DNA from: a candidate division KSB1 bacterium
GTDB taxonomy: Bacteria > Zhuqueibacterota > JdFR-76 > DREG01
Length of the DNA: 9,910 nucleotides
Direction: 5' to 3'
Assembly: GCA_022566355.1 (NCBI GenBank)
Contig: JADFJB010000149.1
Span: 1-9,910, forward strand
Part shown: piece by piece, positions 6,684 through 9,910 of the stretch
Layout: every line of letters starts with the position of its first letter
Numbering within the stretch: the stretch's first letter is position 1
Made by a program: the position numbers and the translations under genes
The notes under the pieces: model-generated
What the model was told of the DNA's origin: nothing
What the model saw: only the letters and a program-made list of their open reading frames with translations
The model's database searches: none

Positions 6684-6784
6684 CAATAATTTACGACCTA
6701 AGACCTGGCAGGTTTTTTTCTCAAAAAAAAATTATTTTTTGAAAATTGGAGTTTGAAACCTGCCAGGTCTTTTTGCAATTATTG
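6684..6784. repeat. Nested inverted repeat built on the ACCTGGCAGGT / ACCTGCCAGGT core
   Basis: Arms at 6700-6715 and 6756-6771 are perfect 16-bp reverse complements (AAGACCTGGCAGGTTT and its complement). Each arm is itself palindromic around one base (ACCTG-x-CAGGT). Inside lies a second pair, TCAAAAAA at 6721-6728 and TTTTTTGA at 6735-6742. Outside lies a third, CAATAATT at 6684-6691 and AATTATTG at 6777-6784. A direct 10-bp match TTTTTGCAAT is present at 6678-6687 and 6770-6779. It separates the GWxTD gene from the small membrane protein. The plus strand has a T5 run after the right arm, but there is no plus-strand gene ending here, so it is better described as a REP- or MITE-like palindromic repeat than as a terminator. 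Confidence 0.75.
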
Positions 6785-6799
6785 AATAATCCAGGTTAG

Positions 6800-8992
6800 T
6801 TACCTTAAAGTTAGTGATGTTTCTTTGTTGGCAGATCGCTGGTTTTTTTGATCCGTTACTTTTATATTAAGGGTATATTCACCTTTTTTTAAATTACTTA
6901 CATCAATGGCGAGATGTTCAAAAGAAAATGTAGAGTTACTTTTCCGATCCGAACTAACAGTGACGGATGTTTTCTTTCCCTTGCCAAATAAACCGAATAT
7001 TTTTCCTTTGTTGGCTTTTTTTGATTGAATGGTGTACTCGATTGAAAAAGAGCTCATTTCGGTAGCGAGTTCCAGGTTATAAATCTCAAAATAAATATAA
7101 ACCGGCCGGTCAATTTCAAAACTTTTCATGATGTTTGGAGTAATTTTGAGCCCATGCCTGGTAAACTTTCCCGGGCTATCCGATGCATGAATGGACGTTG
7201 CCAATAGAATATCACTTATACTCAATATGTTGGCCGAATAATCCGGTAAATTCACCAACAGGTTTTGATAACCACCCAATAAATTTGTATGATTTGGTTT
7301 AGCATGAAAAGCGACGCGATAAGAGTCCGGTTCCATTGTCGCACGAAATAGGTCAAAAATTAAATCTTTCGCATGTAACTCACTTCGTTTAAAAGGAATG
7401 TCCAGAATTCGCGGTTGCTGCAGAATTTTGTGCCAATCCATACCGTGTACTGCCAGACCGCTTTCAATTTGCATAACAGTTACCGTATCTGCCAAAGACT
7501 TGGCTATGGTTTGAATTGGAAATCCATAATACACTTCAAGAGTAGTTTTGCCGGATTCACCCTTGAAAGTCACAATAGTGTACGGGAGGTCCAATGGTTT
7601 GATTTCGCGATCCCAGCTATGGCGATCGGTTGTCAACGCTATTGTAACTTCCTTGCTTCGCTGAATAGCCATGTCCTCACTGGCGGCTAAACGCTCACCC
7701 ATTGAAATTTGATTTGCTCTATAATATCCCGAATTCCAGTGATAACGATCACTCAACATTGCCGGGTCATCGAGTTTTGCACTTAAGCGCCAGACCTCGC
7801 CCGGTTTTAGAAAATGAAAGGTCATTTCAGGATTTGCTTCCCTGGCATAATATAACCAGGATTGGTTGCTGACTTTTGCCACAGATCTGATTTCATCGTC
7901 CGGCAGGCCATGTCGAAGATAAATTACACCGCGGTCATCCAGCCAATGATTCAATTTAAAAGTTTCGGGAAATTGAATATAGTTCAACTTATCCGGATTG
8001 TTGGCCCAGGTACGAAAACCATCGAACTCATAGTTTTCTTCTGCATAAATCAATCGACGGTAATGTTCTATAAGCCTGGCGTTTTGCTCTGACGCTGGTG
8101 TCGGATCGCGACTGGCCCAAAAAGTTCGAAAAAATGTTATCTTGTCGTTCACCGAATCCATTGCCCGATAGGAATCAAACTCGTCCTCAGTGACTATATA
8201 TTTGATATCTTCGAAAACAAGATCCGAATCCAGGTGAGATTGAATTCCGTCGACAGCCCGCCAAAAATAATTTCCAAGGTCATCTAACTCATTATTAGCA
8301 AATTGAACGCGAATCATTGAGAGAAATATGGGTTGTTTACTCATGTTTAAATCATTAGCGAGCAATTCTTGAAAGATGGAATCCGCTTCTTGAGTCTTAC
8401 CTTCCCGGCGAAACTTTTCGCCAATGTAGTAACTGGCCTGGTCCCACTGTTGCCGGGATAACCACGATATGGCTTCATCCAGTTTTTTGTGATCGATATA
8501 ATGGCGGTATAGATCCAATAAGCCAATTTGAGCCTTAATTATTTGCGGCTTCAGCCGAATTTGCTTATGGCCTAGTTGAATAGCCTCGGTATATTTCTTT
8601 CGATATCTTTGCAATAAAGCAAATTGAAAGAAAATATCTTTGAACAAAGAATCCTTCGTTATCACTTTTTTAAAATGCTTTTCAGCATTTGGCCAGTCAT
8701 GAACAAAAGCCACTAACCGTCGGAATTTACCATATTCTCTATGACAAATACCCCGGTAATAATGCGCTTCTATATTTTCGGGTTCCAACTTCAAGATTTT
8801 GTCGAATTCCTTAGAAGCCTTGCTCCACTTTTCCTGGTTGATTAAAATTTTACCAATGGCAAAATATCTATCTATTTGCTTTTGATCGTTTTCCTGAGAT
8901 TGGTAAGAATTTGATAAGGTTGGCGAAGCTATGGTGTTGATTGAAATAAATAAACAGATGAAAATGAAGAATTTGCGGGGGATTTTATGCAT
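6800..8992 (-). CDS. Exported TPR protein with a variant GWxTD domain
   Basis: The 730-residue protein begins at ATG 8990-8992 with a signal peptide (H-K-I-P-R-K, then F-F-I-F-I-C-L-F-I-S-I, cleavage near I-A-S). Residues about 38-215 are tetratricopeptide-like helices (for example K-A-S-K-E-F-D-K-I-L-K-L-E-P-E-N and E-A-I-Q-L-G-H-K-Q-I-R-L-K-P). Residues about 286-385 form the GWxTD domain: F-W-A-S-R-D-P-T-P, L-I-E-H-Y-R-R-L-I-Y-A-E-E-N-Y, then D-D-R-G-V-I-Y-L-R-H-G-L-P-D-D. The naming motif itself is altered to H-W-L-D-D (residues 349-353). The remaining C-terminal half is beta-rich, ending in an Ig-like extracellular-style module (L-K-K-G-E-Y-T-L-N-I-K-V-T-D) after a glycine/lysine-rich stretch at 659-675. 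GWxTD proteins are widespread in FCB and related phyla and usually exported; their biochemical role is not known. No intact partner gene adjoins it. Confidence 0.85.
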   Translation of the reverse strand: MHKIPRKFFIFICLFISINTIASPTLSNSYQSQENDQKQIDRYFAIGKILINQEKWSKASKEFDKILKLEPENIEAHYYRGICHREYGKFRRLVAFVHDWPNAEKHFKKVITKDSLFKDIFFQFALLQRYRKKYTEAIQLGHKQIRLKPQIIKAQIGLLDLYRHYIDHKKLDEAISWLSRQQWDQASYYIGEKFRREGKTQEADSIFQELLANDLNMSKQPIFLSMIRVQFANNELDDLGNYFWRAVDGIQSHLDSDLVFEDIKYIVTEDEFDSYRAMDSVNDKITFFRTFWASRDPTPASEQNARLIEHYRRLIYAEENYEFDGFRTWANNPDKLNYIQFPETFKLNHWLDDRGVIYLRHGLPDDEIRSVAKVSNQSWLYYAREANPEMTFHFLKPGEVWRLSAKLDDPAMLSDRYHWNSGYYRANQISMGERLAASEDMAIQRSKEVTIALTTDRHSWDREIKPLDLPYTIVTFKGESGKTTLEVYYGFPIQTIAKSLADTVTVMQIESGLAVHGMDWHKILQQPRILDIPFKRSELHAKDLIFDLFRATMEPDSYRVAFHAKPNHTNLLGGYQNLLVNLPDYSANILSISDILLATSIHASDSPGKFTRHGLKITPNIMKSFEIDRPVYIYFEIYNLELATEMSSFSIEYTIQSKKANKGKIFGLFGKGKKTSVTVSSDRKSNSTFSFEHLAIDVSNLKKGEYTLNIKVTDQKNQRSANKETSLTLR

Positions 8993-9252: not shown

Positions 9253-9267
9253 CTTGTAACATCTTTA

Positions 9268-9396
9268 TATCGACGCAAGTTAACCCGATTTGACAGCAGG
9301 CAATGAACTTGATAGCCGCGCAAAACTTGAACTAAACCGTACAGAAAAACTAAAAAATCAACGGCTTGCAAATTCGGGTTGAACGATGGGTTAGAG
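9268..9396 (-). other. attC-like recombination site, degenerate (integron cassette site candidate)
   Basis: On the minus strand the element opens with CTCTAAC (R''-like, 9390-9396), five bases, then GTTCAACCCGAATTTG (L''-like, 9369-9384). After a long central region come CAAATCGGGTTAACTTG (L'-like, 9276-9292) and GTCGATA (9268-9274) at the R' position. The inner arms pair as AACCCG/CGGGTT plus ATTTG/CAAAT with one unpaired base, like the extrahelical bases of attC hairpins. A further AGCCG/CGGCT pair lies inside. The length of 129 bp is within the attC range. It begins 12 bp after the stop of the 129-residue gene, the normal place for a cassette's attC. Against this, the R' box departs from GTTRRRY and no integrase is in the window. 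Confidence 0.45.
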
Positions 9397-9408: not shown

Positions 9409-9798
9409 TTAATTAAAAAAGTTTTCAATTACATATTTCTTGAACAAATATTTTTTAGAGTCACCTAAAACGCTACCTACTATATTCTTGCTATTATAAA
9501 AACAATATTGCAAAGATTTAAAGGAATTCAAAGAAACTAATGCGTTATCTTTTTTACTTTCTCTATGTTTCTTTAAATCCAGATTTGCTACTGAACAATA
9601 AATTTTGTTATCTTGCGAGAGAAACTCTCTACGTTTTTGCATTTTACCTTGATTACCCATTTGAGTATGAGATGGATTAATATAAATATCCGTCTCTGCC
9701 GATATTTTGTCAAATTTAGATTTTAAATATTTATCCTCGTATTGCCATTCCTTTATATTTAACTTGCCATTAATCTCCCACCACTTTTTAAAACTCAC
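9409..9798 (-). CDS. Unrecognised AT-rich hypothetical protein, 129 residues
   Basis: The frame starts at GTG 9796-9798 with GAGG five bases upstream, directly after an in-frame TAA, so the start is well defined. The protein begins M-S-F-K-K-W-W-E-I-N-G-K-L and is rich in lysine, asparagine, serine and aromatic residues. It has no signal peptide, no membrane helix and no motif I recognise. It is probably a soluble cytoplasmic protein. Codon and base composition are clearly more AT-rich than the amidohydrolase or kelch genes, as is usual for recently acquired accessory genes or phage/cassette genes. Its start overlaps the stop of the preceding gene by four bases (GTGA), implying translational coupling. 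Its stop lies 12 bp before the attC-like structure. Function is unknown, and a long spurious frame cannot be fully excluded. Confidence 0.6.
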   Translation of the reverse strand: MSFKKWWEINGKLNIKEWQYEDKYLKSKFDKISAETDIYINPSHTQMGNQGKMQKRREFLSQDNKIYCSVANLDLKKHRESKKDNALVSLNSFKSLQYCFYNSKNIVGSVLGDSKKYLFKKYVIENFFN

Positions 9799-9910
9799 AC
9801 CAACCTCTTAGATAACTCATTAATCGGATGCTTAGGATTCTTAAAGTAAACCTTAAACACTTCATGCCATGGATTGTTAGTCTTATACTGCTTCCTTAAT
9901 ATCCATTCGC
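9795..9910 (-). CDS. Unrecognised gene, C-terminal part only (runs off the window)
   Basis: Reading in from the window edge, the minus strand is open for 37 codons: E-W-I-L-R-K-Q-Y-K-T-N-N-P-W-H-E-V-F, then K-V-Y-F-K-N-P-K-H-P-I-N-E-L-S-K-R-L-V and TGA at 9795-9797. Composition matches the following 129-residue gene (basic, aromatic, AT-rich codons). The stop is embedded in the GTGA overlap with that gene, so the two are probably one transcription and translation unit. The fragment is too short to name; the basic, tryptophan-containing tail would fit a nucleic-acid-binding or phage-type protein but this is only an impression. Confidence 0.5.
   Translation of the reverse strand, partial: EWILRKQYKTNNPWHEVFKVYFKNPKHPINELSKRLV
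9804..9808 (-). promoter_or_regulatory. Ribosome binding site for the GTG start at 9798
   Basis: The coding strand carries AGAGG five bases before GTG, inside the end of the upstream gene. It supports the GTG start and the coupled two-gene arrangement. Confidence 0.55.

Follow-up and report, generated by a model that had tools for sequence, protein, structure and literature searches.

An intact attC site acts as a single-stranded hairpin of the bottom strand, with R and L boxes to which the integron integrase IntI binds; an extrahelical base orients the enzyme, and cleavage in R′ at the GTT/AAC triplet leads to the insertion or excision of a cassette. Among the described systems, the VCR-type long attC of the sedentary chromosomal integrons of Vibrio cholerae resembles the site reported here in its length of about 130 nt, in forming a homogeneous family within a lineage, and in its layout, i.e., R″, spacer and L″ with one extrahelical base, then L′ and R′, around a long imperfect centre and with an ORF just upstream. 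The present site differs from the VCR type in that it is solitary, its R′ triplet is mutated and no intact intI was found in the genome; its loop sequence is presumably unrelated to the VCR loop. The aadA-type attC sites, which belong to class 1 integrons and Lysobacter arrays, are nearly identical to it in their R″ and L″ arms (CTCTAACAAGTCGTTCAACCCGA in Lysobacter) and have the extrahelical base at the same position, but they are only 60 nt long, with a short GC-rich loop and an intact R′. A further likeness is with CALINs, in which attC-type sites stand without a neighbouring intI. The arrays on contig C18 of a same-family genome (G004) and on contig C200 of the host genome are of this kind, no intI being found on the assembled stretch; however, their contigs end, so that a linked intI is possible.

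The window, that is, the whole stretch of DNA analysed, covers all 9910 bp of contig C149, from a genome of 4.62 Mb that is assembled in 213 contigs and 98.5% complete. Its element at 9265-9396 belongs to a known class, the attC sites, as a degenerate example. Very probably, this relic is the end of a former gene cassette of a chromosomal integron, the cassette gene being the 129-aa ORF at 9409-9798.

Architecture of the Site

On the minus strand, the order is R″, five nucleotides, L″, a long loop, L′, a spacer and GATATAA. The features of the site and of the putative cassette are as follows.

9265-9396, minus strand: degenerate long attC, whole element from R″ to R′; matched by covariance model R3 (see below) over 9267-9396
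9390-9396, minus strand: R″ box CTCTAAC; heptamer common to all eight Lysobacter/Stenotrophomonas matches
9389-9385, minus strand: spacer CCATC between R″ and L″, 5 nt
9374-9384, minus strand: L″ arm GTTCAACCCGA, with the C at 9381 unpaired; 10/11 identity to the aadA1 attC arm; perfect pairing with L′
9289-9373, minus strand: long central loop of VCR-like length; homologous to and alignable with the loops of the G004 sites
9279-9288, minus strand: L′ arm TCGGGTTAAC; complementary to L″ throughout, the extrahelical base apart
9265-9271, minus strand: degenerate R′ box GATATAA (canonical GTTRRRY); position from an alignment with six homologous sites
9409-9798, minus strand: probable cassette gene, an orphan encoding 129 aa from a GTG start; its stop codon lies 12 bp ahead of R″
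9795-9908, minus strand: final 37 aa of another translated frame, truncated by the contig end; overlaps the orphan gene at its GTG start

R″ agrees with RYYYAAC at six of seven positions. Like those of the aadA1 attC, the L″/L′ arms form 10 perfect pairs and leave one base extrahelical, here a C, the fourth base of L″. The preliminary description had given the order R″, five bases, L″ and L′ and a single unpaired base, both of which stand as described; its placement of R′ at GTCGATA does not, since the homologues put the box three bases further out. It had also called R′ off consensus, and rightly so: GATATAA has GAT in place of the scissile GTT, and the site is for this reason filed as a degenerate and not as a functional attC. 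No second attC was found on the window contig, whereas CALINs are usually recognized from at least two attC sites lying close together without intI.

The bottom-strand fold, proposed earlier as a check, gave a mixed outcome: the arms pair, but the energy is ordinary (z = -0.96, not beyond shuffled sequences). Of five G004 sites folded, four reached z = -2.9 to -4.5 and the fifth -1.2. Folding energy by itself is thus no argument for the window site. On a home-made half-site score that runs from R″ to L′ and leaves out R′, the site reached 35.0 bits; random sequence matched in dinucleotides (20 Mb) gave 32.4 bits at best, and most verified attC sites score between 20 and 46 bits.

Rfam yielded chance matches only, blastn of the site against a plasmid collection yielded no match, and the generic short-loop attC models R1 and R2 missed the site; R1 gave no match above about 102 nt, and of a genuine attC that is 121 nt long in a relative it recovered just 57 nt. 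Within the host genome, the left-half pattern TCTAACNNNTCGTTCAACCCGA is found once; a 257-Gb genome collection has it in eight places, all in Lysobacter or Stenotrophomonas and all continuing as 60-nt attC sites. In Stenotrophomonas sp. Iso1 (L052 2459-2518), an attC with the CTCTAAC/GTTCAACCCGA left half has a degenerate R′, GATAAGC, and represents a second GATA lineage.

A Family of Long attC Sites

The covariance model R3 was built from five long sites of G004, a genome of the same bacterial family but another genus, with the window site excluded from training. It matches the window site with 83.4 bits (E = 3.4e-18 genome-wide), which bears out the covariance-model check suggested in the preliminary description. 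As controls, R3 found the aadA1 and aadA2 attC sites of a plasmid integron and the attC sites of Lysobacter arrays at their known places, with E-values down to 1e-9 on classical attC sites, and gave zero matches on eight other loci of the host genome. Four G004 elements are 70-75% identical to the window site along nearly its whole length (best E 6e-14; 74% for one of them), and three of these four are in turn 85-91% identical to a fifth, G004:C88:13143-13273. This fifth site, which with the other four makes up the training set of R3, is found some 650 bp upstream of an intI that is intact and divergently oriented and whose product has 352 aa and scores 471 bits against TIGR02249 (cut-off 265). 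A 91-aa ORF stops 3 bp before the site, and site and ORF sit where the first cassette normally sits. Among the homologues, helix 2 (L stem plus inner stem) carries two-sided compensatory changes in five of its 19 pairs; when the partners were slid out of register, pairing fell from 89.6% of cells to 22-43%.

R3 has 38 matches in G004. Contig C18 holds an array of at least nine sites with ORFs in between, and about 25 sites are scattered, some at contig ends and many alone within long contigs. In the five-contig genome G041, long sites occur in at least four distant places (loci L144, L149 and L110 are examples from G004 and G041). Matches at E ≤ 1e-6 were found in 17 of 81 genomes of the phylum, and a strong intI match in 38 of 82, the same family included. 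Judged by its sequence, the window site belongs to a long (~126-133 nt), Vibrio-repeat-like attC family of the chromosomal integrons of this bacterial family.

Integron Remains in the Host Genome

A search of the host genome for an intact intI returned only Xer-like or partial recombinases and one fossil, and no complete integron was found. The fossil (G000:C15:12338-12707; L015 1319-1688) has a large internal deletion, frameshifts and stops. One of its frames corresponds to residues 30-58 of the G004 IntI, followed, after a deletion of about 190 residues, by the IntI-specific stretch (..RRHH); residues 279-313 and 321-349 are represented by pieces that lie in other frames, and stops occur. 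TIGR02249 is the top NCBIfam match of all three pieces. The proposed search for an integrase therefore found one as a fossil in the host itself, besides those of the 38 genomes mentioned above. Pseudogenised intI genes are common; in one survey (PMC2426708), roughly every third intI gene was of this kind. Just downstream of the fossil lies a HigA antitoxin gene preceded by a small ORF, a probable HigBA pair.

Further copies of the site, which had also been suggested as a search target, exist in the host genome as well as in the family. Two full-length relics of long attC sites were detected by R3 at C7:12328-12459 (60.7 bits) and C184:3405-3501 (44.8 bits), and another attC lies at the end of contig C184 (43.2 bits). 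Contig C131 retains the right half of a long attC (78% identity over 46 bp) beside a UPF0175-DUF3368 pair. On the same contig (L018 5200-7460), the 3′ end of the threonine synthase gene and the HicB-like ORF following it are duplicated two to three times around this pair and the half attC. Contig C200 (L088 247-3711) is of a different make: six shorter attC sites follow one another in a regular array, separated by cassette ORFs that include those of a zinc-ribbon protein and a Ribonuc_L-PSP protein. This contig stops upstream of the array, and a linked intI may be absent from the assembly.

Origin of the Site and of Its R′ Box

Several observations count against reading the element as an attC, namely the off-consensus R′, its solitary position, a fold no stronger than that of shuffled sequences, the failure of R1 and R2 to detect it and the truncation of the cassette by the contig end. 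The ordinary fold energy would suit a chance inverted repeat carrying an attC-like heptamer, and stems of the same geometry with unconstrained sequence arise about 34 times per 20 Mb; yet the homology to elements of another genus over nearly the full length, at the E-values given above for sequence comparison and for R3, already refutes this explanation, whose probability is close to nil. A dispersed MITE-like or REP-like repeat family that resembles attC and moves without IntI would account for the many single and scattered copies in G004 and G041. Such a family would hardly be expected to build a cassette-like array with ORFs between its copies, or to close the first cassette beside an intI, as these elements do; moreover, a model trained on the G004 copies finds classical attC sites, and the geometry of R″, L″, extrahelical base and L′ is exact, which makes this origin very improbable. 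The preliminary reading of a fossil cassette junction or chromosomal-integron relic is preferred because of the R3 match, the homologue beside an intact intI, the intI fossil of the host and the further relics, and it is strengthened by the integrases of the family.

Within the cassette reading, the R′ box could have come about in more than one way. Its GATAT agrees with the consensus of secondary sites, Ga/tTNa/t, and the site is solitary, as would be expected if an IntI acting in trans had put the cassette into a non-attC site (attG or secondary, with a GWT core); G-AT would then be host sequence, and R′ would never have read GTTRRRY. Off-target insertion by a distant IntI is, together with loss of intI and rearrangement, among the proposed origins of CALINs (PMC8618304), and insertion into attG has been demonstrated according to passages of PMC12444791 and PMC12901181. 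A host-derived R′ would, however, be free at its fourth base. The 26 sites compared, which are scattered or lie at contig ends and include that of the window, all have A there, and the three sites with GAT all read GATA. This constancy counts against insertion and favours mutation of GTTA. In addition, the R′ boxes of G004 contigs C73 (ATTATAT) and C99 (GTTATAT) are only two or three changes away from GATATAA. Insertion into a non-attC site is accordingly the rather unlikely course, and R′ probably arose by mutation of a GTT form.

The site still has its loop, its extrahelical base and the R″, L″ and L′ boxes; under descent by mutation, the scissile GTT would have turned into GAT. Owing to this change, the site is probably inactive. 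The GAT triplet, together with the failure to find an intact integrase, makes excision unlikely, and, with a fossil as the sole integron integrase found in the genome, the cassette is probably frozen in place.

Implications for Integron Decay

According to a 2021 review, integrons have been recorded in 14 phyla (PMC8618304). In the host genome, intI is broken and attC relics are scattered, while a regular array of another attC type persists. The genome thus offers a view of integron decay within one lineage, for which G004, with an intact intI and many sites, is the contrasting genome of the same family. A lineage-specific attC model is now available for a phylum in which nearly half of the genomes searched give a strong match to intI, and generic short-loop models can miss long sites. 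The scattered copies also provide material for testing whether off-target insertion disperses cassettes. More speculatively, and with a probability that we consider low, IntI may have seeded long attC cassettes singly over chromosomes throughout the phylum, scattered and separately decaying cassettes rather than one array being the usual state; if so, the GATA that recurs in R′ would represent a core that is tolerated or else a trace left by insertion at non-attC sites.

The Putative Cassette and Its Neighbours

The orphan gene lies in the same orientation as the site and stops shortly ahead of R″, as a cassette gene does, and probably arrived as a cassette. No relative of it turned up in plasmids, phages, viral contigs and 80 genomes of the phylum, nor in Pfam, NCBIfam or PADLOC, and the single-sequence structure prediction of its product is unusable (pLDDT 37). 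The 37-aa partial frame gave no match when scanned for families and is perhaps another part of this cassette. Position 9910, where the contig ends, falls inside the putative cassette, the left boundary of which (G^TTRRRY) would lie beyond it, and a contig-end overlap search for an adjoining contig found none. On the other side, the preliminary description had placed the site between a gene stop and a closely following frame; the stop 12 bp ahead of R″ is as described, but the next frame (6800-8992, minus strand) starts 275 bp away and looks like an ordinary host gene of the TPR/GWxTD type, not a cassette. Elsewhere in the window, a two-gene IS3-type transposase (HTH_Tnp_1 and rve) lies near the contig start at 134-1404, and an AT-rich inverted repeat at 6700-6769 (GACCTGGCAGGTTT ... 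AAACCTGCCAGGTC), with chance microRNA matches in Rfam, resembles a terminator or a repeat hairpin.
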